A stretch of 64,000 bases of DNA. Source: Komagataeibacter sp. FNDCF1. GTDB lineage: Bacteria; Pseudomonadota; Alphaproteobacteria; Acetobacterales; Acetobacteraceae. The notes under the pieces were generated by a model. That model did not search any database and was not told the DNA's origin. It saw nothing but the letters and a program-made list of their open reading frames with translations. Of the stretch, positions 32,084 through 61,303 are shown one piece after another. Location of the stretch: the NCBI RefSeq assembly GCF_021295335.1, contig NZ_JAIWOT010000001.1, positions 1,057,001 through 1,121,000 on the forward strand, written 5' to 3'. The position numbers were made by a program, and so were the translations under genes. Positions within the stretch are counted from its first letter, which is position 1. Every line of letters starts with the position of its first letter.

Positions 32084-33418
32084 CTACCCTGTTACTCTGT
32101 TTGGCACGTCCGCGCGAAAGTTCCGCACGGCCTCCAGCACGGCCGCAACCGCGCCACGATCGAGCGCATCCGCCGCAAGGCCGATGTTCCCGCGCAGGGC
32201 GGCGTAATCGATCTCGCCCCCCCGCATGATAGTGCTGCCCCTGCCCGCCACATGCAACGCGACACCTGCGTTGAGCAGCACGGTATCCCGGTAGGCCCCG
32301 CGCGCGCCCTGCGCCAGTTCCCGCAGCGCCCGCGCGTTATGGGCGGGCGTGCCACCGGCAATGGCGGCGATGGGGGCTGTCGCCAGTCCCGCCTCCTGCG
32401 CGTGAATGGTCACGCGCCGGATCGATCCGTCCTCCAGCACGCAGGCATGGGTGGGGCCGGCCAGAGTCAGTTCATCAATGAACCGGCCCTGCCCGCATTC
32501 ACCACTGACCGCCCATACCCGTTCCGACCCTACCTCCCGCAGGGTGCGGACCATGACTTCCAGCCAGTCGGGGGAAAAGACGCCCACAAGCTGCCGCCGG
32601 ACCTCCGCCGGATTGCACAGCGGCCCGATAAGGTTGAAAATGGTGCGAAAACCCAGCGCGCGCCGCACCATACCCACATGCCGCATGGCGGGATGGTGAT
32701 TGGGGGCGGCAAGGAACGTCACGCAATGGGCCGCCATCATCCGGCCGATATGCCCGTTATCAACCGGCAGGGGCACGTCGAGTTCCAGCAGCACGTCCGT
32801 CGCCCCCGAGCGCGAGGACAGTGCCCGGTTGCCATGCTTGGCCACCGGCACGCCCATGGCGGCCAGCACGAAGGCCACGGCGGTGGAAACATTGAGCGTG
32901 CCCAGCCCGTCCCCCCCCGTGCCGCATACGTCAAGCGCGCCATCGGGCATGGCGGGGACGGCCAGCATGCGCGCGCGTATCGCCCTTACGGCGGCATGGA
33001 GTTCGGTCACGCTCTCGCCGCGCATGTGCAGCGCTGTCAGGAACGCGGCCAGTACTGCATCGCTCACCGCCCCGTCCATGATCAGGCCGAAAGCCGTCTG
33101 CGCCATGTCCGGCGTCAGGTCACGGCCGTCCAGCACCACGTCCAGAATGTCCGTGAACCCGGATGCAGGGCCTGCGGGACCGGGCGCGCGGTGACGCAGC
33201 ACGGCTTCCAGTTCCACCGGGTCGGCCTGCACCCGGCCCTGCATGCGCAGTGCGGTCAGAAAGGCTATGGCGGGCACCTGCTCCACATCGCCATTTTCGA
33301 TGGATCGCAGGGCGGCCTGCGCCTCCTCCGGCGCCACCACGCCCCCCGCAACCGCCCGCCCCAGTATCGCGCGGAACGTGTCGCTGGTGGACGGGCCGCT
33401 GTCCATCGTGCCGGCCAT
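32084..33418 (-). CDS. trpD: Anthranilate phosphoribosyltransferase with duplicated N-terminal domain
   Basis: 444 residues against about 340-350 for typical TrpD, which transfers phosphoribose to anthranilate. The catalytic part is complete: DVCGTGGDG-LGTLNVST (PRPP loop), VAKHGNRALSS and a normal C-terminal half. The extra length is a second copy of the N-terminal helical domain. Residues about 15-75 (TFRAIL, PEEAQAAL, IAFLTALRMQG) mirror about 88-150 (GFTDIL, PDMAQTAF, AAFLTALHMRG) with about 73-residue spacing. The second copy is contiguous with the catalytic domain, as in normal TrpD. Whether copy 1 alters dimerisation is unknown. A start at Met5 is also possible. Confidence 0.9.
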   Translation of the reverse strand: MAGTMDSGPSTSDTFRAILGRAVAGGVVAPEEAQAALRSIENGDVEQVPAIAFLTALRMQGRVQADPVELEAVLRHRAPGPAGPASGFTDILDVVLDGRDLTPDMAQTAFGLIMDGAVSDAVLAAFLTALHMRGESVTELHAAVRAIRARMLAVPAMPDGALDVCGTGGDGLGTLNVSTAVAFVLAAMGVPVAKHGNRALSSRSGATDVLLELDVPLPVDNGHIGRMMAAHCVTFLAAPNHHPAMRHVGMVRRALGFRTIFNLIGPLCNPAEVRRQLVGVFSPDWLEVMVRTLREVGSERVWAVSGECGQGRFIDELTLAGPTHACVLEDGSIRRVTIHAQEAGLATAPIAAIAGGTPAHNARALRELAQGARGAYRDTVLLNAGVALHVAGRGSTIMRGGEIDYAALRGNIGLAADALDRGAVAAVLEAVRNFRADVPNRVTG

Positions 33419-33424
33419 GACCGC

Positions 33425-49908: not shown

Positions 49909-50387
49909 TTATGAAGGATTGACGGGCGGGCTGCCCTGCGGGGTCAGATTCTGGCGGGCCTGCTGGCGGATGGCGTTGCACTTCTTGGTAAACACGGCGG
50001 ACTGGGAAGCAGTCATGAAATTGATGATGAACGCCACCACCAGCGAGCAGAAGGACAGCGCGATCACCGCCTGCCCCAGGCCGCCTATGGGCGTATCGTA
50101 ATATTCCGCCGAGTACCACAGCAGTACGAGGCTGAGCACCGCCCCGAAAAAGCCCATGACGCCAGTGTAATGGACCAGCGTATCTTCCTCGTTGGCATAA
50201 TCAGCACTTTCCTGCCACAGCAGGTACAGCTTCTGGTTCATTTCCTCCACCTGGCAGTCATGTTCCAGTTGCTGTGCACTGACCAGCTTGGTGGGAGCGG
50301 TACGGTACATGCCCAGTTCCTGCTGGGCCTTGGCAAAGACGCGCCGCCGCTCCTTGATCGCTGGCAGGCTGATATCCACAAAGCTGA

Positions 50388-51317
50388 GAGCCCGATCCGA
50401 AAGTTTTTCAACCCTGACAATGCCTTGCTGTCCGTCGTGTGAGCATTCGGATTGAGGCGATCAATGTCCATGCGGTTGAGGAAGCAATGGATTGTTCCCA
50501 ATCTTTGGCGAGCCGCCTGCATCGTCCCAGCCATGCGAATGTCCGTTCCACCACCCAGCGACGCGGCAGGATCTGAAAACCCTTCACCGTATCGGACCGC
50601 CTGATGATTTCGAGGGTCCATTTTCCCATGGAGGCGAGCGCGGATCGCAATTTGTCGCCAGCATAGCCGCCATCAGCGAAGATGTGGCGCAGCCAGGGAA
50701 AGCGCCTGCGTATCGCTGCCAGAACATCAACGGCCCCATCACGGTCCTGGATATCAGCGGCATGAACGAGGAGAAAGATCAGGAAGCCGCAGGTATCCGT
50801 CACGATATGGCGCTTGCGGCCCTTGACCTTCTTCCCCGCGTCATAGCCCGAAATCCCGCCGCTTTCCGTGGTTTTCACCGACTGGCTGTCAATCACGCCC
50901 GCGCTCGGAGAGGCGTCACGTCCCTCGATCTCGCGCAGGCTCATGACCAGCACCGTATTCATGACCTCGAACACTCCGGCATCACGCCAGGCGTAAAAAT
51001 AGCGCCTGATGGTCGAGACCGGCGGAAAGCATTTCGGCAGCAGACGCCACGCACACCCGGCCGAGGCTATGTAGAGCATCGCATTGACCACCTCGCGCAT
51101 ATCCGTCGTGCGCGGACGACCGCCCCGTTTCGCCGGGGGCACAAATGGCATGATCAAAGTCCACTCCCCGTCCGTCATGTCCGATGGATATCGCAATCTT
51201 TCCCGGCTATACTCGCGCCGGGCAATACCAGTCCATGTCACCATTCACTCCATCTCTCTGCAAAGACGGATGAATCACAACAGGCTGGTATTGTTCAAAA
51301 ACTTTCGGATCGGGCTC
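50388..51317 (-). mobile_element. IS5-family insertion sequence, IS1031 group (930 bp)
   Basis: Exactly 930 bases. The inverted ends are identical for 21 bases, starting GAGCCCGATCCGAAAG on each strand, and are then imperfect. Direct repeats TGA flank it (50385-50387 and 51318-51320), fitting the TNA target of IS1031-group elements. One transposase gene on the minus strand. Complete and probably able to move. Confidence 0.95.
50408..51244 (-). CDS. IS5-family (IS1031 group) DDE transposase
   Basis: 278-residue transposase that cuts and joins the element ends. DDE residues: Asp119 (GVIDSQSVKT), Asp191 (FADGGYAG) and Glu233 (WVVERTFAWLGRCRRLAKD, with the Y/R-x-E signature). N-terminal DUF4096-like region (LTDGEWTLIMPF-type, here MTDGEWTLIMPF). 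No frameshift is needed. Ends 20 bases inside the IS boundary on one side and starts 73 bases inside on the other. Confidence 0.96.
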   Translation of the reverse strand: MVTWTGIARREYSRERLRYPSDMTDGEWTLIMPFVPPAKRGGRPRTTDMREVVNAMLYIASAGCAWRLLPKCFPPVSTIRRYFYAWRDAGVFEVMNTVLVMSLREIEGRDASPSAGVIDSQSVKTTESGGISGYDAGKKVKGRKRHIVTDTCGFLIFLLVHAADIQDRDGAVDVLAAIRRRFPWLRHIFADGGYAGDKLRSALASMGKWTLEIIRRSDTVKGFQILPRRWVVERTFAWLGRCRRLAKDWEQSIASSTAWTLIASIRMLTRRTARHCQG

Positions 51318-51538
51318 TGAGAATTGCCACATTCAGGCCGGCTGACAACTGCACGACTGCCTGAAAATCACCCCAAGTCTGGCTCACGCTCGCCCTCCGG
51401 TCCCAAAACCGTGAACATGATACCGCATGCCACGACAAAGCAGCAGCGCGTAAAACGGGCAGGCAGGATTGCAATCAGTCCGGGACCGCCAGCCTGCGCC
51501 ACATCCCGCCCATCGTGAAGCCGGTCGGGGGTACGTCC

Positions 51539-53938: not shown

Positions 53939-54319
53939 GCCCCTGCTCCCCCATATCAGGCGCGGCCGATACGCCAGACACCGTTTCGCTCATGTTGTGT
54001 TAGGTGCGCCATGATTGCACCATATATGGTGTCATGCACGCATTAAATGACATGCCCCCATGTGCCCGGGCAGCAAAAGTCAGGACCTGGGCGGGCCGAC
54101 TCCCGCATGTATTTTTTTCCGGGGTAACGGTTTCGGCCCGGCTCGGGCGGGCGGGCCGGAAAGAGGCATGCGCCCCCGCAATCCGGTATCGTGATCGGCT
54201 GCATTCGGGACACGGGGCCCGTCATTGCGCTGAACCGGGCCACCTTTGTGAACCGGGCGGAAAACCATGGCAGGTGGCGCGCGTCTGCTTCATGTCAACA
54301 CGAAGCAGGATGACATTCC
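53939..54319. promoter_or_regulatory. Divergent control region of the ribonucleotide reductase and Zn dehydrogenase
   Basis: 381 bases. Holds the NrdR-like box (54018-54031), a TATTTTTTTCC tract (54110-54120), two GAACCGGGC direct repeats near 54230 and 54251, and a hairpin CTGCTTC / GAAGCAG (54285-54308) just before the Zn dehydrogenase start. No gene recognised. Confidence 0.5.
54018..54031. promoter_or_regulatory. NrdR-like box
   Basis: Perfect 14-base palindrome CACCATATATGGTG, close to the NrdR consensus CACWATATATWGTG. A half-like match (ATGTTGTG, 53992-53999) lies 32 bases away towards the gene, consistent with the usual paired-box spacing of 31-32, but it is degenerate. Confidence 0.7.
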
Positions 54320-55504
54320 ATGAAAGCACTGACCTGGCAGAAAAAGGGCAAGATCACATGCGAAAGCGTGCCTGACCCCGTCATTCTCGATGGCCATGAC
54401 GCCATCATCAAGGTAACCGCTTGCGCGATCTGCGGCTCCGACCTCCATCTGATGGATGGCATGATGCCGACCATGCGGTGTGGTGACATTCTGGGTCACG
54501 AAACGATGGGGGAAGTGGTCGAGGTCGGTCGGGACAATACGCGTCTTTCCATCGGACAGCGTATCGTCGTCCCCTTCACGATTTCCTGCGGTGCGTGCCG
54601 GCAGTGCAGATGGGGCAACTGGAGCTGCTGCGAGCGGACAAATCCCAACGGGCACCAGCAGGCCGAGACATTCGGCTATCCATTGGCCGGCCTGTTTGGC
54701 TATTCCCATATTACGGGTGGCTTTGCTGGCGGTCAGGCGGAATACCTGCGCGTGCCCTATGCCGATGTCGGGCCGATCGTGATTCCCGAAGGGCTGGATG
54801 ACGAACAGGTCCTGTTCCTCTCTGATATTTTCCCCACCGGCTACCAGGCCGCCGAAAACTGTGAAATTACCCCGGAATCCGAAAAAACCATCACCGTATG
54901 GGGCTGCGGGCCGGTTGGGCAGATGGCGATCCGCTCCTGTTTCCTGCTGGGGGCAAAACGCGTCATCGCCATTGATGAAGTGCCCGAAAGACTGGCCATG
55001 GCACGCGCCGGCGGGGCTGAAACCATAGATTTCCGTACCCACAATATTCAGGAAACGCTGGTTGACATGACAGCAGGGCTTGGCCCCGACGCGGTGATCG
55101 AAGCTGTCGGCATGGAAGCGCATGGTGCCGATACCATGATGCAGAAAGTCGGGTCGGCCCTGCTGTCCGCCACGACGCTGGAGCGGCCTTTTGCGCTGAA
55201 CCAGGCCATTCTTGGCTGCAGGCCGGGCGGCATCGTGTCAATGCCGGGTGTCTATGCCGGTGCGCTGGGTCCGGTCATGATTGGCGTACTCATGAACAAG
55301 GGCCTGACCCTGCGCACCGGTCAGACCAATACGCAGAAATATCTCGCCCCCCTGCTGGAGCGTATCCGGAACGGGGATATCGACCCGACCTTCGTCATCA
55401 GTCATCGCTCCACCAGCCTTGAGGATGGTCCGGCACTTTATGAGAAATTCAGGGACAAGAAAGACAACTGCACCAAGGTTGTCTTTCACCCGCACGGGCG
55501 CTGA
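54320..55504 (+). CDS. Zinc-dependent alcohol/formaldehyde dehydrogenase-like protein
   Basis: 394-residue medium-chain dehydrogenase. Catalytic zinc residues: Cys38 (AICGSDLH) and His60/Glu61 (GHETMG). Structural zinc: Cys90, 93, 96 and 104 (CGACRQC, CC). A 20-30-residue insertion relative to ADH and the [10 protein letters not shown]-like segment (here [10 protein letters not shown]) resemble glutathione-independent formaldehyde dehydrogenases and their relatives. Cofactor site GCGPVGQMA, followed by Asp in VIAIDEV (NAD type). Substrate unknown. Single gene downstream of the divergent control region. Confidence 0.85.
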
Positions 55505-55560
55505 ACCCGCTGCCTTTTCCGCCATGATGGACAATGTGGTCCTGCCGCAGGCAGCGTGGT

Positions 55561-57246
55561 TCAGGGTGGGCCGTCCGCCGGGGCATGGCCAAACAGGCCA
55601 GACAGCATGCGCAGCAGATCCCGGGGGGCAACAGGCTTCTCCAGATAACGCGCCTGCGGGAATTCCGCGGCCAGAGGTGCCTGGTCGCCATAACCGGTGG
55701 CAAACACGAAAGGCGTGCCCCGCGCCTGCAGCACGCGCGCCACCGGGGCGGAGGTCTCCCCCGCCACGTTTACGTCCAGCAGTGCCGCATCCACCCCATG
55801 CATTTCCAGCACTGCAAATGCCTCCTCTATCGAGGCTGCCAGACAGACCTGCGCCACCCCGTGCGCGCGGAGCATGTCCTCTATATCAAGGGCCACGAGG
55901 AATTCATCCTCCAGCACCATGACCGTCCGGCCCGCCAGTGCGGGGGCACCCCCGTCATGCTCCGGCCCGGGGGGCAGCGTGACCTGCACCTTTTGCTTCG
56001 GCACCGGGGGCGCATCGACCACGGTGCTGCCCGGCAGCGTGACATCCACCACCACGCCATGGGGCAGGAAGCGGCGCTCCGCCCTGCCCTTCAGGTCATG
56101 CACGATCGCGCGTTCGATCAGCAGCCCGCCAAAACCCGACTTGGCGGGCGGGTTCACCATCGGGCCACCACGTTCGCACCAGCAGATGTGGCAATCCTGT
56201 CCGTTCCATTCCCACGCAACACTGATCCCGCCCGTGGGTACGGACAATGCGCCATACTTGGCGGCATTGGTTGCCAGTTCATGGAACAGCAGCGCCATGA
56301 ATGTGAGCGCGCGGGTGCTGAAGCGCAGGCATGGCCCTTCCAGCATGATCCGGCTGGGCTGGCTGTCATAGGGTGCGAGTTCCCCCATGAGCAGTTCCTG
56401 CAATGTGGCGCCATGGTCCACCCGCAGCGCCTGGTCATGGGCGTTGGACAGCGCACGGATGCGCCCGCGCAGCGCGGCACTGTAGCTGGCCATGCTGTCA
56501 TCTTCCGCCGGTGCGCGCGTCACCAGCGCCTGCATGACGGCAAGGATGTTCTTCACCCGGTGGTTCAGTTCATCATTGAGCATGCGCTGGGTGGCCTCGG
56601 CCTGCTCCTGTTCACGCAGCTTCTGCTGGTGGGCCGCGGCCATGACCTCCAGCAGGGTGGCGCGCATCTGCGTGGCCAGTTCCACGTCATCGGCCGTCCA
56701 GGCAGCACTGCGGCCATGCACGTCCTGCTTCCATATATCAAAACTGGAGCGTGGGGTCAGCCGTGCGCCCAGCCTGCCGCTGGGATAGGTCTTTTCCGGA
56801 TCGCCACCCCACATGACCGTGCGCACCAGTTCGCGGCGGAACAGGATCAGGTAGTCACGCCGCGCGGGCCAGATGGGCATGACCATGGCCCCCGCAATAC
56901 CATGTACATCCGCGCCCAGGCCGGGGCAGTCATGCGCCAGATGGTCCGTATGCCAGATCTGGCCATCCGCGCGCGCATCGGCCACACGCAGCATGCAGGC
57001 CAGATCCGCAGGCGGCAGGCTCTCGCCACGTGCGGTCCAGCTACCGTCTATCCACACGCCACCGCCATCACACTCGATGATGTCCAGCAGTTCGGATGTC
57101 CGGTCACGGAAATAACCGAAAATATCGGACACCCGCGGGGCATCGCGCAGGAAACCGGACAGGAAGCCATGCGCACCATGCAGAAGCCCCAGCCGCCGCG
57201 TACGCACCAGGGCGATGATCTGCAGGGCCAGGAATTCCCCCAGCAT
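55561..57246 (-). CDS. Bacteriophytochrome C-terminal half: PHY, HWE histidine kinase, receiver
   Basis: 561 residues, in frame with the upstream gene but separated from it by a TAG stop and six further codons. Order: the end of GAF and the PHY domain (1-190) with the tongue motif PRSSF (165-169); an HWE-type kinase with phospho-acceptor His229 (ELNHRVKN) and HELATNAAKYGAL N-box; a C-terminal receiver with Asp491 and Lys537 (LEKPV). No strong ribosome binding site precedes the ATG at 57246. Alone it cannot bind chromophore. It is functional only with readthrough, re-initiation or complementation. Confidence 0.85.
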   Translation of the reverse strand: MLGEFLALQIIALVRTRRLGLLHGAHGFLSGFLRDAPRVSDIFGYFRDRTSELLDIIECDGGGVWIDGSWTARGESLPPADLACMLRVADARADGQIWHTDHLAHDCPGLGADVHGIAGAMVMPIWPARRDYLILFRRELVRTVMWGGDPEKTYPSGRLGARLTPRSSFDIWKQDVHGRSAAWTADDVELATQMRATLLEVMAAAHQQKLREQEQAEATQRMLNDELNHRVKNILAVMQALVTRAPAEDDSMASYSAALRGRIRALSNAHDQALRVDHGATLQELLMGELAPYDSQPSRIMLEGPCLRFSTRALTFMALLFHELATNAAKYGALSVPTGGISVAWEWNGQDCHICWCERGGPMVNPPAKSGFGGLLIERAIVHDLKGRAERRFLPHGVVVDVTLPGSTVVDAPPVPKQKVQVTLPPGPEHDGGAPALAGRTVMVLEDEFLVALDIEDMLRAHGVAQVCLAASIEEAFAVLEMHGVDAALLDVNVAGETSAPVARVLQARGTPFVFATGYGDQAPLAAEFPQARYLEKPVAPRDLLRMLSGLFGHAPADGPP

Positions 57247-57267
57247 CTTTGCCGTGGTACGTTCCGG

Positions 57268-58146
57268 CTACGTCAGCTGGCGGGGCATGTAGTGATGGAA
57301 GGCAATCAGCCCCCACAACTGGCCGTCGACAACAAGTGACACCGACATGGAGGCGCGCACGCCCATGTTGCCCAGATATTCGCAGTGCACCGGCGAGACC
57401 GCGCGCAGGTGCATGAAACTCATGTCCAGCGCAGGCAGGCCGGGTTCCTCAAGCACCGCGACGCGCTGGAACGTGGCGTCCCCGATCACGCGGATCAGCG
57501 AGCGGCGATAAAGCTCACGTGCCTGCGCCGGGATGTCCGTACTGGGGAAATGCTGGCCCAGGAAACTTTCAAGCCCCTGCCTGCGATCTTCCGCGATCAC
57601 CTTGCCGGACCAGTCCGGCGCGAAGCGGTAGACCATGGCACGATCATAGCCAAACAGGCGGCGCATCTGCGGTATGGCCTGACGCAGCAGGGACAGCACG
57701 TCGGCCGGGTCACGCAGTTGCTCATGGACCGCGTGCAGGCCCTCCACAAGTGCCGCCGTCTGTTCCGGCCGGGCTGCCGGTTCACATTCCACCACGATAT
57801 CCGCACCCACGCGATGCACCACGCAGTCACACCGCACCCCGCCGCGCAGCGCGGTGTCTGTCATGACGCGGGGCCTGCCCTCTTCCATGCCATGTGCAAG
57901 GCTGCGCAGGCTGTCCGCCACGCCCTGCCCCATGCATTCATCCAGCGTCATGCCGAAATGGGGTGTGACGGCCGGAAGCCACTCCGTCACATTGGCGGAA
58001 TAGCGGTTGAGCCGCCAGTCGGCCATGCGAAAAGCCAGGACAAATCCGGCAGGCTGGATGCTGGCGGGAATATGGATGGGCTCACGGTCACAGGTCGTAA
58101 GATCCGCCTCGCCAAACGCCACGATGGGCCGGGCTGTCTCATTCAT
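57268..58146 (-). CDS. Bacteriophytochrome N-terminal half (PAS-GAF), ended by in-frame TAG
   Basis: 292 residues. The PAS domain holds the biliverdin-attachment Cys19 in TTCDREPIHIPASIQPAG, and the GAF domain holds DRAMVYRFAPDWSG, PSTDIPAQARELY (the PASDIP motif) and the chromophore-pocket His in SPVHCEYLGNMG. It ends GLIAFHHYMPRQLT then TAG at 57268-57270. In intact phytochromes this position aligns with the Tyr in PRYVPYEVR, and the following codons read PERTTAKMLGEFLALQ. A one-base change TAC or TAT to TAG would explain it. It overlaps bphO by ATGA. Confidence 0.9.
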   Translation of the reverse strand: MNETARPIVAFGEADLTTCDREPIHIPASIQPAGFVLAFRMADWRLNRYSANVTEWLPAVTPHFGMTLDECMGQGVADSLRSLAHGMEEGRPRVMTDTALRGGVRCDCVVHRVGADIVVECEPAARPEQTAALVEGLHAVHEQLRDPADVLSLLRQAIPQMRRLFGYDRAMVYRFAPDWSGKVIAEDRRQGLESFLGQHFPSTDIPAQARELYRRSLIRVIGDATFQRVAVLEEPGLPALDMSFMHLRAVSPVHCEYLGNMGVRASMSVSLVVDGQLWGLIAFHHYMPRQLT

Positions 58147-58915: not shown

Positions 58916-60367
58916 TTACCTGCCGCCCGTACCCATGTAGCAGACAGGCTTGCCGCCGGCGTGGGTCGCACGGCTGTCCCCCGGCGAGAAGTGATCTTCC
59001 AGATACTGTTCCAGTTTCTCCAGCGACATGCCTTTCGTTTCAGGCAGGAACCGTGCCACGAAAACGAGGGACATCAGGTTGATCACGGCAAACGCGAAGA
59101 AAGTGAACGCCCCGATCCAGTGCAGGACCACCGGAAAGAGGAAGGAGACGGTGGCATTGAAAACCCACTGGGCCGCAACGGAAAGCCCGGTCAGGATGCC
59201 CCGCGCCCGCATGGGGAACAGTTCCGACATCAGCAGCCAGTAAAGTGGTGATACCATCATCTGGATGAAAAACAGGGCCAGCAAAATGAAGCCCAGCGCA
59301 ACCACGCTCTGTGACGGGGCACCGCCCATCAGCAGCAACGTCGCCCCCAGGCCCAGATGGGCGCATATGACACCGGCAAGACCACCCATAAGCGTAAAAC
59401 GGCGTGCAAACCGCCCGATCATCCATATCCCCAGAAAGGTCGCGCATACGGCAACAACACCCGCGCCGATTGTCGCGATCAGGGCTGCTTCTGTGCCCAG
59501 GCCGGTCTGGCGCAGGATGATCGGCGTGAAATACATGAAGGCGTTCACACCGGTAAACTGGGCTGCAAACCCCAGCCCTATCCCGACCATCAGAAGACGC
59601 TGGATCCAGGTTTCACCCAGCGCCTCCCGCCATCCCATCTGCTCGGAATCATCATTCACCTGTGCCCTGATCTCGACCATTTCCCTGTGGACCTGCGTAT
59701 CCGTCGAGCGGATGAGTTCCAGCACATGCCTGGCTTCATCCGCCCGGCCACGACTGGCCAGCCAGCGCGGAGAGCGTGGCACGAACACCAGGCCAAGCCC
59801 CAGCAGGCAGGCCGGAACAGCCGCAATCAGGAGCATGATGCGCCAGATGCCGGGGGCACCGGAAAACCTTGCCAGCAGAGCGCTGAGGATGTAGGCGATC
59901 AGCTGTCCCGTCACGATCATCATCTCGTTCTGGCTGACCAGTCGCCCGCGTCGGCCCGGGGGTGCCATTTCCGAAATGAACATCGGAACAAGGGCGGAGG
60001 CACCACCAACCGCGAACCCGAGTACGGCGCGCATCAGAACCATGACCGGAACAGTCGGCGCCTGTGATGTACCGAGCGCACCGATGACAAAGATGGCGGA
60101 CAGTCCCATCAGGCTGTCGCGCCGCCCCAGCCGGTCCGCCACGATGCCACATAGCAGCGACCCGACTGCCGCACCCAGCACCAGCGCGGACGTTACAAGC
60201 CCCTCGGTCAACGGGGTCAGCCCCAGGCCGCCCTGTGCAGCCGGAAGCTGCATGAACGGAAGCGCGCCCGCGATGACCCCGGTATCATAACCGAACGCCA
60301 GCGCCCCCATGGTGACGACCATGACAATCTTGGTTACCAGTTTCTGTGCGTCAGTAAGCTTTTTCAT
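58916..60367 (-). CDS. MFS sugar porter family transporter (second copy)
   Basis: 483-residue proton/sugar symporter with 12 membrane segments. Family signatures in order: FGYDTGVIAGAL (25-36), ADRLGRR (77-83), an ISEMAPPGRRGR block, FVPRSPRWLAS in the central loop, QFTGVNAFMYF, GRFARRFTLMGG, and LPETKGMSLEKLE at the C-terminus. These are closer to the standard xylose/galactose porters than the 168-1637 transporter. Start at 60367 (MKKLTDAQK). It is expressed from a long AT-rich upstream region and no catabolic genes are beside it. Confidence 0.93.
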   Translation of the reverse strand: MKKLTDAQKLVTKIVMVVTMGALAFGYDTGVIAGALPFMQLPAAQGGLGLTPLTEGLVTSALVLGAAVGSLLCGIVADRLGRRDSLMGLSAIFVIGALGTSQAPTVPVMVLMRAVLGFAVGGASALVPMFISEMAPPGRRGRLVSQNEMMIVTGQLIAYILSALLARFSGAPGIWRIMLLIAAVPACLLGLGLVFVPRSPRWLASRGRADEARHVLELIRSTDTQVHREMVEIRAQVNDDSEQMGWREALGETWIQRLLMVGIGLGFAAQFTGVNAFMYFTPIILRQTGLGTEAALIATIGAGVVAVCATFLGIWMIGRFARRFTLMGGLAGVICAHLGLGATLLLMGGAPSQSVVALGFILLALFFIQMMVSPLYWLLMSELFPMRARGILTGLSVAAQWVFNATVSFLFPVVLHWIGAFTFFAFAVINLMSLVFVARFLPETKGMSLEKLEQYLEDHFSPGDSRATHAGGKPVCYMGTGGR

Positions 60368-61303
60368 TCATGTATCCACAGCCTTTCAACCGTGTTCCCC
60401 TTACGGACGGGCACTGAAAGCTGTCCATTTCTTTCATGCCAGGAAATCAGGAAACACTTGAAGCCGCTGCCGGGTTGCATAATTCCCGCACTGTCAGAAA
60501 ATTTGTTTATCCTGATTTTTATTTTTCTTTCCCGTTTCTGTCTTAAATTTGAATTCCGTACCAATGATACTGTCCAGACGCCGGGACCACCGGCCATTCC
60601 ATTAAAATCAGGGCGGGATGTTATTTGTCATCACTCCGGCTGGTGCTCATACACCGCCACCAGCCCTGTTGAGGCAGCAGCCATGATCCCGCATTCCGAC
60701 AGACCCGCAGAGCCGTTTTTTCTGTGATCGCCTGACGGTTGTAATAGTCCATCGCCCATGGAATGGGGAAAAGCGGTGCACGGCTTTTTTTACCGACACG
60801 CTCCCCGTTATCTCACCCGATCTCGCACCCATGCAAACCAGTTTCCTGATCCGGGTGGCGATCCGTGGCACGCCATGCCGAATGTCCTTCCACTCAGGCT
60901 GGCCAGTCTGTCTGCAGTCCCGCCCCGTGGCAGTTTCCCGCCATCGGCCATGCTGTCCATTGCTTCACGGAAAAGGAAGCAACGGCCTCAACCGGTCTCT
61001 GCCGGCATGACCCGCAGGCAGACGCCTGGTCATCGAGGGTCATGCGCGTATACCTCGTGGCAAGTTTCTCCTCGCCTTGACGCTTTCTGATGAATGCCCG
61101 GACCCGGCCCGGATTGGCCTGTTCAATCCGAGAATGAAATCTGTCGCCTGTCTGTCTGCATATTTCGGGAACCACCAAAACCCGTTCCATGCCGACAATG
61201 CCTGGAAGGAACCGGGTAAGCCGACCATGACACTCGGGATGTTCGCAAGGGGGCGCCGTCAAAGCCGGGCGGCCGCATGTTGAACGTAGCTGAATGGATC
61301 AGG
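60368..61303. other. 936-base region without a supported gene
   Basis: Between the second sugar porter and the GlxA-type regulator, both on the minus strand. The first 250 bases are AT-rich and should hold the porter promoter. Several short open frames (for example 60758-61090 plus and 60894-61262 minus) were examined; none shows a domain, a convincing start signal or typical codon usage. It may be gene debris. Confidence 0.4.

Follow-up and report, generated by a model that had tools for sequence, protein, structure and literature searches.

The closest match among solved structures for the gene discussed here is the Agrobacterium phytochrome of PDB entry 6g1y (residues 14-502, E 9e-112), which we take to be Agp2, an Agrobacterium bathy phytochrome. 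Traits common in bathy phytochromes include a Gly at PRXSF-8 and an Arg at PRXSF-3 (PMC12362586). A natural broken bacteriophytochrome has also been described, as bphP1 of Rhodopseudomonas palustris CGA009 is frame-shifted and is not expressed (PMC6899989). With regard to phytochromes of Komagataeibacter or Acetobacteraceae, we found nothing specific in the literature. The gene that we describe is from Komagataeibacter sp. FNDCF1, in a stretch of 64,000 nucleotides that was analysed as a whole and is referred to as the window. It probably encodes an Agp2-like bacteriophytochrome with an HWE kinase, forms part of a bphO-bphP operon and has recently lost its function through a single nonsense mutation.

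On the minus strand, 58146-55561 reads as a single frame of 861 codons, in which the translation has only one internal stop, a TAG at codon 293 (Table 1). Random sequences of equal length and composition were drawn from a first-order Markov model, and each of the 2000 has at least six stops; the presence of one stop in 861 codons is thus not a matter of chance. Pfam places PAS_2 and GAF upstream of the TAG, and PHY, HWE_HK (PF07536, E 2e-20) and Response_reg downstream, so that the domain order in the interrupted frame is PAS-GAF-PHY-HWE kinase-receiver. The preliminary description of this DNA, in which one frame of an otherwise complete phytochrome is split by a single TAG, is borne out in this respect, and the residues it gave as intact are all present in the translation: the biliverdin Cys19, the PRSSF motif (465-469), and His529 of the kinase and Asp791 of the receiver, which are His229 and Asp491 in the numbering of the second ORF. 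The N-terminal fragment, in which the Pfam GAF match stops at profile position 112 of 133, also carries Asp204 of the PSTDIP motif, His254 and His285, and in the kinase the phospho-acceptor His and the N and G boxes are present (NHRVKN, HELATNAAKYGALS, GFGG). The six codons that had been counted as separating the TAG from the ATG that follows are in fact seven, all of them sense codons (CCG GAA CGT ACC ACG GCA AAG). The gene has the ordered PAS_2, GAF and PHY domains of a bacteriophytochrome, and also the N-terminal Cys and the Asp and His residues of the chromophore pocket, but the ORF is not continuous through the photosensory and output modules. With a TAG at codon 293 it is thus a broken member of the bacteriophytochromes.

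Table 1. Positions in the window of the interrupted phytochrome frame, its parts and the adjoining gene
Feature	Position	Strand	Evidence
In-frame TAG, codon 293 of the bacteriophytochrome frame	57268..57270	-	Translation and homologue alignment
N-terminal fragment: PAS_2 and most of GAF	57271..58146	-	Pfam, motifs
C-terminal part after the TAG: spine helix, PHY (tongue PRSSF), HWE histidine kinase, receiver	55561..57267	-	Pfam, motifs, predicted structure
First ATG past the TAG, 21 nt downstream	57244..57246	-	Translation, homologue alignment
bphO-like heme oxygenase (biliverdin supply), 201 codons	58143..58748	-	PDB match 1sk7, E 2e-7

The TAG had been placed at the GAF-PHY joint, and this was not upheld by the predicted structure. 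In an AlphaFold2 model of the full frame, made with Gln put in place of the TAG (mean pLDDT 80, and about 94 near residue 293), a helix of 46 residues is predicted to run from GAF into PHY (293-338), and codon 293 is its first residue. As the helix begins exactly at the stop, the cut would not lie between domains, and a stub ending there would be without the final helix of GAF as well as the spine that leads into PHY, which speaks against a useful split. A functional split would involve termination at the TAG, re-initiation at the internal ATG and reassembly of the two polypeptides. That ATG keeps the frame and is near enough to the TAG for re-initiation, but there is no Shine-Dalgarno sequence before it at the usual spacing, and in intact homologues the corresponding Met is part of a conserved motif in the helix (AKMLGEF/ARMFGEF). 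Nor did we find any relative split into two separate ORFs. Given also the predicted position of the cut, we consider a functional split very improbable.

The other 18 genomes of the genus each have a paralogue with 40-43% identity but neither this gene nor a close orthologue, and the comparison included no conspecific sequence. A search of plasmids for nearer DNA gave distant HWE kinases only. In the tree the window gene and five homologues from Acetobacteraceae, with which it shares 49-57% identity, make up a clade with full support, and all five (L031, L045, L046, L047 and L064) have ATG, for Met, at the site of codon 293. The other alphaproteobacterial relatives have Met, Leu, Ile, Ala or Phe at this site, and among the homologues aligned Tyr is found only in actinobacterial and Pseudomonas sequences. 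The earlier statement that the TAG falls on a Tyr is thus wrong for this clade, and the search it proposed for a Tyr codon at the orthologous site gives ATG in the nearest homologues. None of the relatives aligned at the site has a stop there, rows L034, L035 and L043 having been left out because they were read in the wrong frame in the site table. Since the relatives carry a sense codon wherever they could be aligned, the unbroken gene is, on this comparison, the ancestral state. The change from ATG to TAG takes two substitutions, and we infer that a Leu codon, TTG, is a plausible intermediate, as a rhizobial relative reads LSLPERT where the window gene reads LT(stop)PERT.

For the columns that are invariant in 12 comparison homologues, the window gene departs from none of 58 before the TAG and from 7 of 96 after it, and by the same measure the intact relative L031 departs from 4 of 62 and 9 of 98. 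Accumulated decay was rejected, as the violations are like those of intact relatives, and there is, to judge from a rate within their range, no older decay. GC3 is 0.77 before the stop versus 0.76 after it, and the 861-codon frame has no second stop or frameshift. With no excess damage elsewhere in the frame the lesion should be either very young or a base error; that is, any inactivation is on this evidence very recent. The absence of a second lesion could also reflect an assembly error or retained function. In the case of a sequencing or assembly error the true codon would be a sense codon and the gene intact, and a change at a single base of an otherwise flawless gene of 861 codons is in line with this. 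However, the assembly is of good quality, with 5 contigs and 99.97% completeness, and none of the 51 matches to ABC_tran, the ABC-transporter domain, in the genome contains a stop, on which ground widespread stops across the assembly were rejected. Furthermore, ATG, the codon in the five nearest homologues, is two changes away from TAG, so that a single miscalled base would account for the TAG only if the true codon were another one, for example TTG. We regard such an error as unlikely.

If the gene has been inactivated by a recent nonsense mutation, translation would end at codon 293 and give a PAS-GAF stub without the final GAF/spine helix, and little or none of the PHY-kinase-receiver part would be produced. 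In that case this light sensor would be lost to the strain, and the heme oxygenase may still be produced.

The preliminary description had offered recent decay or readthrough of the codon, and of these it is decay that is best supported. Ordinary low-level misreading of the TAG might yield enough full-length protein to keep function, and this would suit a frame with no further decay; in E. coli reporters readthrough of premature stops was measurable, with Gln and Tyr among the residues inserted (PMC11126739). However, the search that had been suggested for amber suppressor tRNA genes found no CUA anticodon among the 47 tRNA genes examined, a set from which the Ile and Ala-UGC genes of the rRNA operons are missing, and prfA (RF1) is intact. 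Amber suppression was rejected on these grounds, and a tRNA-Leu with anticodon UAG was rejected as a suppressor because it reads CUA codons. The base right after the TAG is C, and not the G that favoured readthrough in the reporters, in which T disfavoured it (PMC11126739). The fold of the local RNA is only slightly better than those of shuffled sequences (z = -1.2), so that structured RNA at the stop was rejected, and TAG also terminates other genes in the window, for example that at 32084-33424. As the relatives aligned have no stop at the site either, we think it distinctly improbable that leakiness maintains the function. There was neither a suppressor tRNA nor loss of RF1, the stop is not conserved in relatives and no second case was seen, and nothing points to programmed readthrough or a new decoding mechanism. 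Other neighbouring ORF pairs in the same frame in the window are separate genes wherever Pfam allowed a family to be assigned (Glycos_transf_3/GATase and Cys_Met_Meta_PP/rhodanese). We give very little credence to the idea that the TAG is kept because low-level, condition-dependent readthrough gives some full-length phytochrome beside the PAS-GAF stub, though if true the gene would be a natural leak-controlled photoreceptor.

The adjoining bphO-like gene, for which the 1sk7 match is to the Pseudomonas aeruginosa heme oxygenase pa-HO, has no match to Pfam or NCBIfam models. Its 3' end overlaps the bphP start by four bases, ATGA. A heme oxygenase gene and a phytochrome gene are also side by side in relatives L031, L139, L141, L048, L050 and L053, so that the two genes here form a bphO-bphP operon. 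The pair is flanked by an alcohol dehydrogenase gene (54300-55509) and a sugar transporter gene (58983-60510), and as these match two different sets of genomes of the genus the region looks composite. At 50386-51320 there is an IS1031-like insertion sequence of the IS5 family, which also matches Komagataeibacter plasmids. Its 99.8% identity to an element on a plasmid of Kozakia baliensis suggests that it has moved recently between acetic acid bacteria.

The genome also has a phytochrome-like HWE kinase that is found genus-wide (G000:C1:650918-653362, L020 and L142, with orthologues L002-L019). In every genome read it is without the N-terminal CDREPIH segment that includes the biliverdin Cys. 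In the copy in this genome the PASDIP motif has become PAGGMP, with loss of the Asp, and the motif was not found in the nearest relatives of this copy, L007 and L015; nor is there a heme oxygenase gene beside it in this genome. To judge from its sequence, this may be a phytochrome kinase that is blind to light. As the only other phytochrome-like kinase found lacks both the Cys and the PASDIP Asp, the strain may be without a working covalent biliverdin phytochrome.

We suggest that in annotation the window gene be labelled a probable pseudogene, and that the halves not be treated as two separate genes. In comparison with known systems, it resembles the 6g1y protein in its PAS-GAF-PHY layout, HWE kinase and PRXSF motif, and in having the Gly and Arg at the two positions given above, and thus has bathy-type traits at the sequence level. 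It differs in that the 6g1y protein is intact with Met at the aligned site, where the window gene has a TAG. The likeness to CGA009 bphP1 is that a sequence intact in other respects is broken in a single strain by one small mutation (PMC6899989). However, in that case the lesion is a frameshift, the output domain is another one and a strain with the gene intact proves what the ancestral state was, whereas in the window gene the lesion is a nonsense codon. A naturally broken phytochrome is thus already documented, and the window gene would be a further instance, of modest significance as another natural bacteriophytochrome knock-out.
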